Assembly (NCBI RefSeq): GCF_001908375.1
Contig: NZ_CP017242.1
Coordinates: forward strand, 248,001 to 312,000
Length of the DNA stretch: 64,000 nucleotides
DNA from: Rhizobium etli 8C-3
GTDB lineage: Bacteria; Pseudomonadota; Alphaproteobacteria; Rhizobiales; Rhizobiaceae
Reading direction: 5' to 3'
Made by a program: the position numbers and the translations under genes. This document shows, piece by piece, positions 42,522-62,907 of the stretch; positions within the stretch are counted from its first letter, which is position 1; every line of letters starts with the position of its first letter. The notes beneath the pieces are model-generated. The model saw only the letters and a program-made list of their open reading frames with translations. It searched no databases and had not been told where the DNA came from.

Positions 42522-42780
42522 CTAGGGAGTGCGATAGGAAAATCCCGGCAGGTAATTGCGCCCGAACGGAAAGGGGATCGATGTCAGCTCAGGGATTTCC
42601 TGAAGCGCTGCCCGCAGATTGCTGACGTTGCCCGCAGCGGGGTGCGGGACTGGCCTGACGTCATCGAGCGGCCGGCGGCTACCAGCGCGCTCATACTTAA
42701 AAAGCAAGCCGTGGCCAGTCTCCGTGCATCCGATGCTGAAGGCGCTGGGCACTGGCCATTCAACGGCGACGGCAGGATAT
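42522..42780 (-). CDS. Hypothetical fragment at the left flank of T-DNA-1
   Basis: A minus-strand frame reads AVEWPVPSAFSIGCTETGHG and SRRPLDDVRPVPHPAAGN and ends at 42522. Its 5' part runs into the border and hairpin, so it is probably the 3' end of a chromosomal-type gene cut by the T-DNA. No family recognised. Confidence 0.3.
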
Positions 42781-42794
42781 AGATGACTGTAGTC
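42770..42794 (+). other. Left border-like repeat of T-DNA-1
   Basis: GGCAGGATATA matches the left half of the 25-bp T-DNA border; the right half deviates (GTAGTC in place of GTAAAC). Its right part is also the left arm of the hairpin at 42777. It may be a border altered by a hairpin insertion. Confidence 0.6.
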
Positions 42795-42880
42795 ATCCAT
42801 TTGCTTGACTTCGCCAAGCTTACCTCGCTTCGCTCGGCTTGGCGAAGCCTGTGCGAATGGATGACTACAGTCATCTATAT
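42777..42880. repeat. Nested hairpin at T-DNA-1 left end
   Basis: Perfect 24-bp outer arms (42777-42800 and 42857-42880, core GACTGTAGTC) enclose a perfect 11-bp inner stem (CTTCGCCAAGC at 42809-42819 with GCTTGGCGAAG at 42837-42847). A relative with different but still perfectly paired arms lies at 53323-53443. Confidence 0.9.
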
Positions 42881-42956
42881 TGGTTCACGGCAAGGCTTGG
42901 CTTATATCGAGAACAGGGTCTATTCGTTGACATTGCAGCTAACTGGAAACACAAAC

Positions 42957-43454
42957 TTAAACGCAATCTACTTCAGGTAACCCCTCTTCCCGATATGCTC
43001 TCACTCCGTCATCAACGCTAATGTTTTCAGGCAGGCTCATCAGCAGCCGGATAAAATCGAAACCAGGGGTCCGCAGGCCGTTGTTATACATGTCGGTAAG
43101 GTAGTCGAACTGGGGAGGACAAGCGGGCGACCGGATAAGCTTCACAACTTTGGCCTCCTTGGCCCAGATCGCGTCCTTTGTTATTCTGCGAATGAACGCT
43201 GCCGTGTTTGTGATGCGTCGTCGGCAGATATAACGGTGCTGTCTGCGCTTTTTTCCTGCCGGCAGGTGTTCCTGAGGAGGTTTCAGTTTCGAAAGCTGGC
43301 CAAGGGCTTGCTCCTGCGCACGCAGCGCGATGTCGTGGACGACCCTCTCCGCGTCGCTGTCGTTGAAGTCGGTTTCCAAAATTGAGGGCCCGCACTGCAG
43401 ACAGAACAGCGAACGGTAGACGCTGCCGTCCTCCGCGAAGCCCCTACCGCACAT
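42957..43454 (-). CDS. T-DNA-1 gene A, unknown 165-residue protein with eukaryote-type promoter
   Basis: 165 residues. The ATG context is CACAATG. Upstream in minus sense lie TATATAAG about 80 bases before the start and a CT-rich leader with runs such as CCTCCCC. No Shine-Dalgarno sequence is seen. The protein begins MCGRGFAEDGSVYRSLFCLQ with a CLQC pair, then a basic stretch, AGKKRRQHRYICRRRI, that could bind nucleic acid or act as a nuclear signal, and a C-terminal half with FDFIRLLMSLPENISVDDGV. I recognise no family. The signals suggest expression in the recipient, not in the bacterium. Confidence 0.6.
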   Translation of the reverse strand: MCGRGFAEDGSVYRSLFCLQCGPSILETDFNDSDAERVVHDIALRAQEQALGQLSKLKPPQEHLPAGKKRRQHRYICRRRITNTAAFIRRITKDAIWAKEAKVVKLIRSPACPPQFDYLTDMYNNGLRTPGFDFIRLLMSLPENISVDDGVRAYREEGLPEVDCV

Positions 43455-60520: not shown

Positions 60521-62281
60521 TTAGTTCATGTTCATCAGCTCCATGGGGAACTTGATGGGCGGACCCATGAACGCGATCGGGGCCAAGTTGGGGTGGTTGA
60601 CCTTGCCGCCGGTGAAGCGCAGGGAGCGCTCAATGGCCATCTTCGCATTCTGCACGCCGCGCAAAATCCAGGCATCCGCACCCGAGGCGGCTGAACCGAT
60701 CAAGCCGACGCCGTATTCCTCGTGCTCAAGGTTGCGCTGGATCAGGTAGGCGGCATATTCCTCTCCGGCCTGGGGGAAGGTCCATCCACCTCCGAAGTAC
60801 TTCTTGTCCTGCCAAACGGCGGAGTACACCTTGCTGTCGGACACCAGGAGCGTGTGGAAGCCGGTATAGTCGTTGCCGAGAGGGTCCTTGAAGTCGCGAA
60901 GCAGGCTGGCCATCATCCTGATGAGGTTCTTGCGCACGACCTCGTCACCACCCATCGAAGCCAGACGCTCGGCATCGGTATTCCAGGCGTAGAAGTGCAC
61001 CTTGATCTTCTGGGAGCCGTCAGGCTGCTCCTCGATCATGATGTAGCAGGGGCAAAGCGGGCTCTTGCCCTGGATGTTGCGCGCAAGCCCCTTGCCAACC
61101 CAGTTCTGAGCCCTGTCTGCCGGGATCGTCCACTCGTACTTGCTGGTAGGCGTCGTGCTGACCTTGGTGAGCGCCTCAGCGACCTTGGGGTGAATGAGCG
61201 TCTGTCCGGGGGCGGCCAGACCCATGTCGACCATGGCGGGCAAAGTGGGCGTGGCGAAAACATAGTGCGCCTCGAAGACCTTCTCGCCTTCGCTGGTGCC
61301 AGCGCGAACACGGTAGCGGCGACGACCGTCCTTGGCAGCGATCTCCTCGATCTTGGTCACGGTGTGACCGCAGTGAACCTGGACGCCGCGCTCCTGCAAC
61401 TTGGCACTGCGATCCCGGATATAGGCACCCACATCGCCGAGCAGCGGCTTGCCATCCTTCAGAACCGAGAAGTAGCCCTGGTTCACGGTGGAGCCGTTGG
61501 TGTTCCACTTCTGATCCTCGAAAGCGCTGATGTTGTCGTGGAAGACGGTGTGGTCGCCAGTGGGGTAGAGCTTGCTAAGGATATTACACTCGTCCTTGGT
61601 CAAGCGAATGCCACCGGGCGGGGTGTTGTTTTCGTGGAACACCTTGACGAACCATTGGTGAATGGTGAGGCCGGCCTGTTGATAGGCCCACAGCTGCTGA
61701 TGGGCCTGGAGAGCCAGAGGATTGTCGTTCTCACGGAACAGAGTGCGAAGTTCAGCCGGAGCCACGAGGGTGGTGCCATTGACAGTGAGGGGACCCTGGT
61801 CGTAGGCGGCAAAGGCGGCGCGAGGCTTCTTGATGATGTCGGGGATGATGTCCTTCTCGACGTCCATGTAGTGGAGCTGGCCGTCAATGTAGAGAAGGGT
61901 GGGGACCGCGTCCGTGTTCATGAACGGGGTCGAGGTCAGGGTGTAGCCGTCCCGGGCGACGAGGTCCTGGAGTTCCTTCATGCCTTTGCCGAAGCGCATG
62001 GCGGCGAGATGGGTGGGCATGCCATTGTCGTGGGTCTGGGAAGCGAGGCGACCGCCGACCTCGGAGGAGGCCTCAAGGATGGTGACATTGCCACCGCAGT
62101 TGAGAGCCTTCTCACCAGTAGTCACGCCAGTGAAGCCGGCACCGATGATGAGGACCTGGGTGTCGAAGGGATAGGCTCCATGAGCGCCGTCAGGACCACC
62201 GCAGGCTTCAGTCCATTTGTCGGTGCGCATAAGAGGGAAGTCGGCGCTGGCCTGAGAGTACTGATCATCGGCGGTAGCCAT
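60521..62281 (-). CDS. T-DNA-3 gene B, flavin-dependent amine oxidase/monooxygenase (IaaM-like fold)
   Basis: 586 residues, ATG in CACCATGGC context. Rossmann FAD motif VLIIGAGFTGVTTGEKALN (about 48-66), then TILEASSEVGGRL; a C-terminal GGWTFPQAGEEYAAYLIQRN region that should contact FAD. This is the amine-oxidase family, which includes tryptophan 2-monooxygenase (IaaM, 755 residues in Agrobacterium), lysine and phenylalanine monooxygenases and fungal L-amino-acid oxidases. It lacks the long N-terminal extension of plant-T-DNA IaaM and no IaaH amidohydrolase is present, so auxin synthesis is not established. It may make an amino-acid-derived amide or keto acid in the recipient. Confidence 0.7.
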   Translation of the reverse strand: MATADDQYSQASADFPLMRTDKWTEACGGPDGAHGAYPFDTQVLIIGAGFTGVTTGEKALNCGGNVTILEASSEVGGRLASQTHDNGMPTHLAAMRFGKGMKELQDLVARDGYTLTSTPFMNTDAVPTLLYIDGQLHYMDVEKDIIPDIIKKPRAAFAAYDQGPLTVNGTTLVAPAELRTLFRENDNPLALQAHQQLWAYQQAGLTIHQWFVKVFHENNTPPGGIRLTKDECNILSKLYPTGDHTVFHDNISAFEDQKWNTNGSTVNQGYFSVLKDGKPLLGDVGAYIRDRSAKLQERGVQVHCGHTVTKIEEIAAKDGRRRYRVRAGTSEGEKVFEAHYVFATPTLPAMVDMGLAAPGQTLIHPKVAEALTKVSTTPTSKYEWTIPADRAQNWVGKGLARNIQGKSPLCPCYIMIEEQPDGSQKIKVHFYAWNTDAERLASMGGDEVVRKNLIRMMASLLRDFKDPLGNDYTGFHTLLVSDSKVYSAVWQDKKYFGGGWTFPQAGEEYAAYLIQRNLEHEEYGVGLIGSAASGADAWILRGVQNAKMAIERSLRFTGGKVNHPNLAPIAFMGPPIKFPMELMNMN

Positions 62282-62431
62282 GGTGAAGGTTGAAAAAGTG
62301 CTTGGGGGAAACTGAGTTTCAAAAAGTGTGTTTGGGAAGTGAGGTGATGTTGCGAAGTGCGAGTGTGATGAGGATGAGAAAGAGAAAGAGAAAGAAAGGA
62401 AAAGAAGTGGGCGACAGCGCTCCTTTTATAG
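62282..62431 (-). promoter_or_regulatory. Eukaryote-type promoter/leader of the amine-oxidase gene
   Basis: In minus sense: TATAAAAGG (62423-62431), a long pyrimidine tract (TTTCTTTCTCTTTCTC repeats), CATCACCTCACTTCCC and finally TTCACCATGGC. TATA, CT-rich block and CACC-type start context are the classic layout of strong filamentous-fungal promoters. Confidence 0.65.
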
Positions 62432-62882
62432 ACGATGGGCTGGGAGTTTCGGGCTCTTGCAATGTCCGAAGTCCGAGCTGAAAGGGGCAGTGCAAGGCAG
62501 GCATCGGGACGATCACGATAATTCTGACACATGCCAAGCAGGCCGTGTCCTCCTTTACGAAATGGTGTACTCAGCCCCTCCAGGCAGCAGCATTTCGGTG
62601 AACCCAATTGGTCATGGACCCACACACCTGTTGGGATCAGCCCCGGTCCTTCGCGAAATGAAACCGCACTATTGGCTTGGCGACGTCATGCAGAACGTGC
62701 ACTGCCCCCTCCTGCGGTGGATGTCCGTTCATGGGGGTGAGCCATCGCCCACCCCCCTTTCTCTTCATTTCCTTCCAGGAAATTTTGCTCTTTCCAACCT
62801 TCCCCATTTTTCATGATAGCGGCTTGGCATCCATCCTTTCCCTTTTGGGATTAGAGCGGATTTGCCGAGCCGCTAACCTCTT
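62432..62882. other. Upstream flank of the amine-oxidase gene to the right border
   Basis: About 450 bases within T-DNA-3 without a supported gene; probably upstream promoter sequence. Some C-rich runs (CACCCCCCTTTCTC) are present. Confidence 0.4.
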
Positions 62883-62907
62883 TAGCAGGATATATATGTA
62901 TGTAGGC
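62883..62907 (+). other. Right border of T-DNA-3
   Basis: Begins TAGCAGGATATATATG and ends TGTAGGC: matches the border consensus except at position 2 and at two bases of the terminal GTAAAC. Same orientation as the left border. Confidence 0.8.

Follow-up and report, generated by a model that had tools for sequence, protein, structure and literature searches.

A Ti-type plasmid of Rhizobium etli 8C-3 whose T-DNAs, one with a telomeric repeat at its left border, are likely directed at a filamentous fungus

Background

What recipient would suit a rhizobial plasmid whose transferred DNAs (T-DNAs) hold genes devoid of bacterial ribosome-binding sites, and one of whose borders is joined to a TTAGGG repeat? 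The question is raised by a stretch of 64,000 nucleotides from Rhizobium etli 8C-3 (positions 248001-312000 of the plasmid contig NZ_CP017242.1, which measures about 430.6 kb and is contig C2 of the 7.3 Mb, four-contig genome handled here as G000), hereafter called the window, to whose first base all coordinates refer. We consider it likely that the plasmid, of tumour-inducing (Ti) type, delivers its three T-DNAs into a filamentous fungus, that TTAGGG ends would act there as ready-made telomeres, and that the bacterium would import compounds made by the T-DNA genes. A filamentous fungus is favoured as recipient because the telomere type, the start contexts of the T-DNA genes and the occurrence of T-DNA-like Acs and C-protein genes in fungi agree with each other. 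A 2017 review gives natural T-DNA copies as known from plants only, poses the fungal case as a question and tabulates fungal genes that resemble those of T-DNA and whose source is unknown (PMC5606197). No description of a telomere-bearing or fungus-directed natural T-DNA was found in the open-licence literature, subscription papers and preprints being outside the scope of that search. If correct, the proposal would predict a fungal counterpart to the genetic engineering of plants by Agrobacterium, and a bacterial plasmid carrying telomeres for another kingdom would be a way of delivering genes between kingdoms that is new in principle.

Results and discussion

T-DNA units and the arrays at their borders

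The border motif CAGGATAWA occurs nine times in the window, against 0.41 matches expected. Three of the matches (30829, 36400 and 37863) lie within the vir region and were excluded from the border count; the remaining six, all on the + strand, delimit three units (42773/47404, 53320/56374 and 58830/62886) with two genes each, so that directly repeated border pairs around eukaryote-type genes, a membership feature of T-DNA plasmids, are present. The three units and six genes of an earlier note on this DNA were recovered with all six open reading frames. T-DNA 1 (42773..47412) extends from the left border LB1 (42773..42796, + strand), which runs into a long hairpin at about 42778-42880, to the right border RB1 (47404..47427, +), followed by TG-rich overdrive-like repeats. 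T-DNA 2 (53320..56382) lies between LB2 (53320..53343, +), itself within a long hairpin at about 53324-53443, and RB2 (56374..56397, +), identical in sequence to RB1 because both belong to a duplicated segment. T-DNA 3 (58830..62894) is bounded by LB3 (58830..58853, +) and RB3 (62886..62909, +), the latter with TTTGT overdrive-like repeats on its outer side. Across the plasmid group described below, the overdrive-like words TTTGT/TGTTCG stand outside seven of nine right borders vs. one of eight left borders.

The TTAGGG repeats mentioned by the earlier note form a telomeric array at 58855..58890 (- strand; CCCTAA on the + strand), just inside LB3; the array starts 25 bp beyond the base that opens the LB3 core and is the sole site with three consecutive TTAGGG units in the whole genome. 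On the predicted T-strand of T-DNA 3 it reads as TTAGGG, running toward the 3' end. Among 394 genomes of the family, three consecutive units were found in three (G000, G047 and G202) and a reversed control in one; the run of G202 proved to be an unrelated intergenic element, was rejected as a T-DNA array and does not figure in the array total. Across the order (397 genomes), the combined border-plus-array pattern was present in two, G000 and G047, and its control in none, and within the genus of G047 arrays were detected in four of 57 genomes (G047, G810, G811 and G816), with all listed sites at borders. G811 was counted as the assembly titled Rhizobiales bacterium AFS080716, since both have the same contig coordinates. 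AFS080716 had been reached independently of the repeat, by a scan with the protein family of T1b, a gene of T-DNA 1 (57% identity), as had Agrobacterium fabrum Kin001 pAt3, a complete plasmid, and 1D132 pAt1D132b, both annotated merely as pAt plasmids and both recovered with a 582-aa T-DNA protein of G047 (22% identity, 4e-12). Array presence is not independent for G047, G810 and G816, which were found by the array search itself; polarity and proximity to a border were never selection criteria, except in the border-plus-array scan.

The pattern of an array at a border recurs in five further genomes or plasmids (AFS080716, G047, G810, G816 and pAt3). In AFS080716, three consecutive TTAGGG units adjoin the left border, which also has a long hairpin, and do not occur elsewhere in the genome. 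A vir region that includes VirE2 (1.2e-39) and VirE3 (8.8e-49) is present on pAt3 itself. The pAt3 record shows a border at position 95,894, directly inside which a CCCTAA array is found, and its right-hand partner at 100,559; a further, small pair (86,502/88,307) has no array, and the layout of pAt1D132b is the same. None of the six window T-DNA proteins had a match in pAt3 at E 0.01.

Altogether 23 borders were examined (six in the window, two in AFS080716, seven in G047, two each in G810 and G816, four in pAt3), and arrays were found at 13 of them, namely CCCTAA at eight left and TTAGGG at five right borders, the right-hand ones of the G047 T-DNA TA and of G810 being degenerate. All 13 point outward, in the sense of a chromosome end. 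Put as a plain rule, when borders are read as CAGGATAT, the arrays downstream of a border are CCCTAA in 8/8 cases and those upstream TTAGGG in 5/5, a wording that avoids "inside", which had to be inferred for G816, where each of the two borders stands on a short contig without its partner, and for the G047 T-DNA TC, for which a left border could not be clearly assigned. Not counted were the 1D132 plasmid, a near copy of pAt3, and, in AFS080716, a third border-like site of opposite orientation. A real chromosome likewise has a C-rich left and a G-rich right end, and TTAGGG is listed for most Pezizomycotina and Basidiomycota examined, TTTAGGG for most land plants, in PMC10100673. The arrays comprise between 1 and 17 full units, the longest being those of G816 (L064 on G816:C26 and L065 on G816:C46, with 9 and 17 units). 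Outward arrays occupy both ends of the G047 T-DNAs TA and TD and, with a degenerate right-hand array, of the G810 T-DNA, and a single end of window T-DNA 3 and of the AFS080716 and pAt3 T-DNAs. Neither TTAGGG nor TTTAGGG arrays were found in the T-DNA region of pTiC58 (first 30 kb of the record) or in two stretches of pTiCFBP4996.

Given a fungal recipient, such arrays might serve not as new ends but as homology that targets integration to the telomere or subtelomere. Their shortness, the frequency of single-ended cases and their absence from two of the three window T-DNAs would suit targeting, while a polarity that matches a chromosome end in every case and the two-ended outward arrangement of some T-DNAs, as in fungal telomere vectors, speak for ends; we regard targeting as a possible but doubtful variant. 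As ready-made telomeres, which is how we prefer to read them, the arrays would work as follows. The 3' end of the T-strand corresponds to the left border, so T-DNA 3 would arrive with a telomeric G-strand (5'-TTAGGG-3' toward the end, as observed in the sequence) that could be used by telomerase or as an end cap, and the two-ended outward arrays of the relatives could give rise to a linear minichromosome or provide a chromosome with an end cap. There is a precedent in the telomere vectors pTEL and pFAC1: a pair of telomeres permits replication after entry, and in filamentous fungi plasmids with such a pair behave as autonomously replicating minichromosomes that have no centromere (PMC7451986). 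Those vectors are man-made and were put into protoplasts, whereas the present arrays are natural and located on T-DNA.

Expression signals and selection in the T-DNA genes

In T-DNA 1, T1a (42957..43454, - strand, 165 aa) has a CACA-ATG start, TATATAAG upstream and no Shine-Dalgarno (SD) match of at least 4 nt, and is accompanied by T1b (44211..46841, -, 876 aa). T-DNA 2 holds T2a (53795..54439, +, 214 aa), with a TTTCACA-ATGTCC start, and T2b (55036..55725, -, 229 aa), with TATAAAA upstream; T-DNA 3 holds T3a (59398..59904, +, 168 aa) and T3b (60521..62281, -, 586 aa), a flavin amine oxidase gene with a C/T-rich leader, TATAAAAGG and a CACC-ATGG start. The earlier note had listed TATATAAG, TATAAAA and TATAAAAGG as TATA boxes and CACAATG, CACCATGG and CAAGCATGG as starts, and all of these are present in the sequence. 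For T1b, T2a and T2b an internal ATG was taken instead of the start of the longest reading frame, which for T1b is supported by the invariance of this methionine (M1) in the aligned family.

That the six genes lack ribosome-binding sites, as the earlier note had stated, was borne out: none has an SD match of at least 4 nt. With the T-DNA genes of AFS080716 and G047 included, such a match is found in 0/18, vs. 25/30 ordinary genes (26 of the window and four of AFS080716), a contrast that may be favoured by the analyst's choice of start for T1b, T2a, T2b, the G047 gene TAb and some control genes. In the same sets, a TATAWA box was found upstream of eight T-DNA genes vs. none of the ordinary ones, and the pyrimidine content of the last 50 bases before the start was 0.59 vs. 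0.47 (one-sided p = 1e-5). The comparison with plant T-DNA was made between 20 genes (the 18 plus two of G810) and the 14 annotated T-DNA genes of pTiC58, whose annotated starts may also be wrong in places. A CAMM-ATG-like start (three of four positions) was seen in 12/20 vs. 1/14, TATAWA in 8/20 vs. 1/14, pyrimidine content was 0.58 vs. 0.50 (p = 0.002), and SD matches of at least 4 nt numbered 0/20 vs. 2/14. It follows from the last figure that a weak or absent SD is common to plant T-DNAs as well, and that the leader and the start context are what differ. The signal counts all exclude four pAt3 genes and the versions of two G047 genes that occur in G810. Ratios of non-synonymous to synonymous substitution rates (dN/dS) were 0.14 and 0.27 for two gene pairs between G047 and G810, and 0.21 for the T1b pair of window and AFS080716, whose dS of 1.6 is close to saturation; the three tested T-DNA genes are under purifying selection. 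Because they have no SD and often carry TATA boxes and C/T-rich leaders, and because the three tested are under purifying selection, the T-DNA genes are probably expressed outside the bacterium, in the recipient.

T3b belongs to the tryptophan monooxygenase/L-amino acid oxidase type (Pfam PF01593, 1.5e-15), with tryptophan 2-monooxygenase (4iv9, 5e-16) as nearest solved structure. Its alignment with iaaM of pTiC58 spans 554 aa at 23% identity (E = 1e-12, comparison of 14 proteins), a relation that emerged only in small comparisons with pTiC58; a tblastn search of PLSDB returned four non-Ti records at 21-22%, and a homologue search that scored the roughly 8000 candidates sharing most words returned T3b itself alone. 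The statement of the earlier note that the usual plant T-DNA genes are missing has to be qualified accordingly: it stands for iaaH, ipt and RolB-type genes, of which no match was found among the six genes, and falls for iaaM, of which T3b is a distant homologue. No family was recognised for the five genes other than T3b, and these had no match among the 14 pTiC58 T-DNA proteins at E 0.1. T1b has five homologues at 53-82% identity in a search whose scoring was likewise confined to about 8000 candidates, its copy in the AFS080716 T-DNA being 57% identical, and a weak match in a further genome (G092; 28%, 6e-7). A comparison of all six proteins with 18 related stretches at E 0.01 gave nothing beyond T1b in AFS080716 and T3b in pTiC58, and scans of viral contigs found no relative. 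The predicted structure of the T1b family (pLDDT, the predicted per-residue confidence, 36) yielded no usable model, and kinship of T1b with the C-protein or the 582-aa family was rejected, as hhalign showed no relation.

Plant, fungus or another eukaryote

A divergent plant-directed Ti- or Ri-type (root-inducing) plasmid, with TTAGGG arrays and leaders as incidental features, is the first alternative with regard to the recipient. It draws on the overlap in gene families with plant Ti plasmids (T3b and iaaM, as well as homologues of acs, nos and the C protein), on the plant T-DNA genes that mostly do without an SD, and on pTiCFBP4996, which likewise has no hormone genes and is ranked as a putative Ti plasmid (PMC8756689). 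Against this stand the mostly TTTAGGG-type telomeres of land plants (PMC10100673), the 13 of 13 outward arrays of TTAGGG type (two right-border ones degenerate) with none in the pTiC58 and pTiCFBP4996 stretches, start contexts and leader composition unlike those of pTiC58, and a homology to pTiC58 T-DNA proteins of only 20-36%. We judge a plant-directed plasmid unlikely. The earlier note had named close homologues in plant-transforming plasmids as a finding that would speak against its view, and the homologues are only distant; its use of eukaryotic expression signals and of TTAGGG as evidence for a non-plant recipient holds and generalises to the five further genomes or plasmids.

The likeness to Ti and Ri plasmids such as pTiC58 is otherwise extensive, with VirA/G, VirB, VirC and VirD homologues, borders of the 25-bp type, overdrive-like repeats outside right borders, T-DNA genes without strong SD, opine-synthase families and a C protein in the relatives, and uptake genes near the T-DNA. 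Differences consist in the TTAGGG arrays or hairpins at the left borders, the C/T-rich leaders with CAMM-ATG starts, the lack of a recognised iaaH, ipt, RolB-type gene and VirE2 in the window, and the likely fungal recipient. pTiCFBP4996 (A. leguminum) comes close through a T-DNA without hormone genes (PMC8756689), opine-type T-DNA genes and similar vir-region neighbours, and departs from the present plasmids by having no telomere repeats at its borders and by its annotated RolB-family gene and VirE2.

Another eukaryote with TTAGGG telomeres, such as a protist, an alga or a small animal, could be the recipient instead of a fungus. Some protists have TTAGGG telomeres, and the contents of the window do not name a recipient. 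C/T-rich leaders and CAMM-ATG starts, here measured in the T-DNA genes, are the style of filamentous-fungal genes and favour a fungus over such organisms. The vertebrate repeat is TTAGGG too (PMC10100673); on the other side, fungal genomes contain T-DNA-like Acs, other opine-enzyme and C-protein genes, and Agrobacterium transforms fungi in the laboratory (both in PMC5606197). The Acs and C-protein families are present in the T-DNAs of these plasmids. We find a non-fungal recipient slightly more improbable than a plant. A reading in which the genes inside the borders are of the usual bacterial kind or dead DNA, and in which the repeats are due to chance or are recombination debris, is very improbable: TTAGGG-like runs do arise by chance in bacteria, as in G202 and in the single reversed control among 394 genomes, but the SD contrast, the dN/dS values of 0.14-0.27 and the recurrence of arrays at borders in six genomes or plasmids all argue against it.

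Transfer machinery and putative opine nutrition

The membership features of a T-DNA transfer plasmid are present in the vir region, i.e., a VirD2-type relaxase, VirD1, VirD4, a VirB type IV secretion system and VirA/VirG. virC2 and virC1 (10528..11854, - strand) score below the NCBIfam cut-off and above it (413/313 bits), respectively; virD1, just below its cut-off, is followed by the gene of the 719-aa VirD2-type relaxase, homologous in its N-terminal third (together 12103..14779, +), and by that of the coupling protein VirD4 (14819..16825, +; 1034 bits, cut-off 681). In the virB operon (20534..31128, -) VirB11 is above its cut-off (274/250 bits), VirB4, VirB9 and VirB10 match their families below cut-off, and the other members were assigned by position or reading. 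virG (31665..32390, +; 360 bits, cut-off 344) and a VirA-like sensor kinase gene (33358..35865, +; 640 bits, cut-off 647) complete the set. By its vir genes and borders the window plasmid classifies as Ti-type, save for VirE2. In homology with known systems, VirD1/VirD2 would nick the six borders and VirB/VirD4 would export the T-strands.

Some T-DNA systems employ proteins other than VirE2. In the place of virE2 the window encodes a 560-aa protein (36190..37872, +) with homologues in G047 and G810 (32%), followed by a 508-aa protein (37961..39487, +) related to the virE2-adjacent gene product of pTiCFBP4996 (4e-12). PF07229 (VirE2) had no match in the window genome, and identification of the 560-aa protein as VirE2 was rejected, as Pfam, PF07229, BLASTP, hhalign, tblastn against PLSDB and a PDB profile search gave no support; its predicted structure (pLDDT 36) provided no usable model. 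It was also rejected as a marker of the group, since the search of five array-bearing genomes did not find it in G811 and G816.

After expression in the recipient, the T-DNA genes would make compounds that the bacterium is predicted to take up through the ABC transporter encoded beside the T-DNA. On the bacterial side, two sugar-type ABC permeases, a binding protein (49350-50702) and a ROK-type (NagC/Mlc-like) regulator (50858-51970) are encoded at 47599..51970 (- strand), followed by a GDSL-family hydrolase (52090..53256, +); all lie outside the T-DNA, those at 47599..51970 as ordinary bacterial genes, and a matching set adjoins the AFS080716 T-DNA (binding protein 79%, GDSL hydrolase 72% identical). 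On pAt3 the ROK and sugar ABC genes are situated some 3 kb past the right border. With the window plasmid it shares these genes, a vir region of its own and a CCCTAA array inside a left border, in addition to the distant homologue of the G047 582-aa protein; it differs in having no match to the six window T-DNA proteins and by VirE2 and VirE3.

The synthesis side is seen in the relatives. T-DNA of G047 encodes an Octopine_DH protein, of the octopine/nopaline dehydrogenase family (5e-9, above cut-off; pTiCFBP4996 homologue 24%), an MmgE/PrpD enzyme, a GDPD-like protein (20.1 bits, below the Pfam cut-off of 23.6, and without an alignment to the pTiCFBP4996 homologue) and a 599-aa protein with 36% identity (1e-66) to the pTiC58 T-DNA protein that goes by the name C protein on other plasmids. 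The DNA between or beside the G047 T-DNAs encodes FAD oxidases resembling sarcosine oxidase and ThiO, together with ABC transporters. In G810 the T-DNA codes for an agrocinopine-synthase-like protein (29% over 375 aa to a pTiCFBP4996 T-DNA gene product, 4e-43; acs of pTiC58, 1e-30), and ROK, sugar-binding, GDPD and inositol monophosphatase genes beside the T-DNA, with permeases and ATPase assigned by reading. Opine synthase and uptake or catabolism are therefore both recognisable by family in G810 and G047, a pattern that reads as opine synthesis coupled to opine use, and in the window the uptake genes alone are recognised, where opine-like nutrition may be supposed.

Weighing the proposal

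Several points weigh against our proposal. Telomeres are not universal in these plasmids, T-DNAs 1 and 2 of the window having left-border hairpins instead of arrays, and TTAGGG telomeres occur outside fungi too. By homology, T3b is a distant relative of iaaM, and the relatives share gene families with plant T-DNAs. VirE2 was not recognised in the window; the opine-like step rests on the relatives, because no family could be assigned to five of the window's six genes; and the T-DNA contigs of G047, G810 and G816 are fragments, so that the vir genes of these genomes may lie on another plasmid.

We lean, with less assurance than for the proposal on the window itself, towards a wider view in which a natural plasmid family, spread over at least two rhizobial genera, evolved to colonise fungi genetically: its opine-making T-DNAs would bring their own telomeres, persist as linear minichromosomes or new chromosome ends, and be the donors of the T-DNA-like genes of fungi. 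The latter (Table 3 of PMC5606197) comprise Acs, opine-enzyme and C-protein families like those of the present T-DNAs; they represent the recipient side without a known donor, for which these plasmids are concrete candidates. One of them resides in a named, sequenced A. fabrum strain, which makes the question directly testable.

Further observations

LB1, LB2 and the left border of AFS080716 (L009 5045-5157) lie in long inverted repeats of which one arm is the border itself, and at such hairpin borders the 3' end of the predicted T-strand would fold back, possibly to prime the synthesis of a second strand. Elsewhere in AFS080716 (L009 1531-1583), two T-DNA borders stand back to back in opposite orientation as an inverted repeat. 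The duplicated segment of the window (about 47100-49340 and 56080-58310) is near-identical in its two copies and includes two ABC permeases and a right border; in the second copy it abuts a truncated gene for a GDSL hydrolase.

A gene that reads as cytochrome c peroxidase-like (32387-33361) is situated between virG and virA, and homologues adjoin virA-like genes on two contigs of G047. A Zeta-toxin family protein (18763-20190) has kin in the vir region of pTiCFBP4996 (6e-18). Among the proteins encoded in the vicinity of the pAt3 T-DNAs is one with 38% identity across 395 aa to a 448-aa protein of the window (7069-8415) that has no Pfam match and is a candidate for an exported effector. Finally, genes for an FHA-domain protein and a ferredoxin-type oxidoreductase (97-4400) are kept as a neighbouring pair on contig C61 of G047 (57-58%) and are a possible accessory module of these plasmids.

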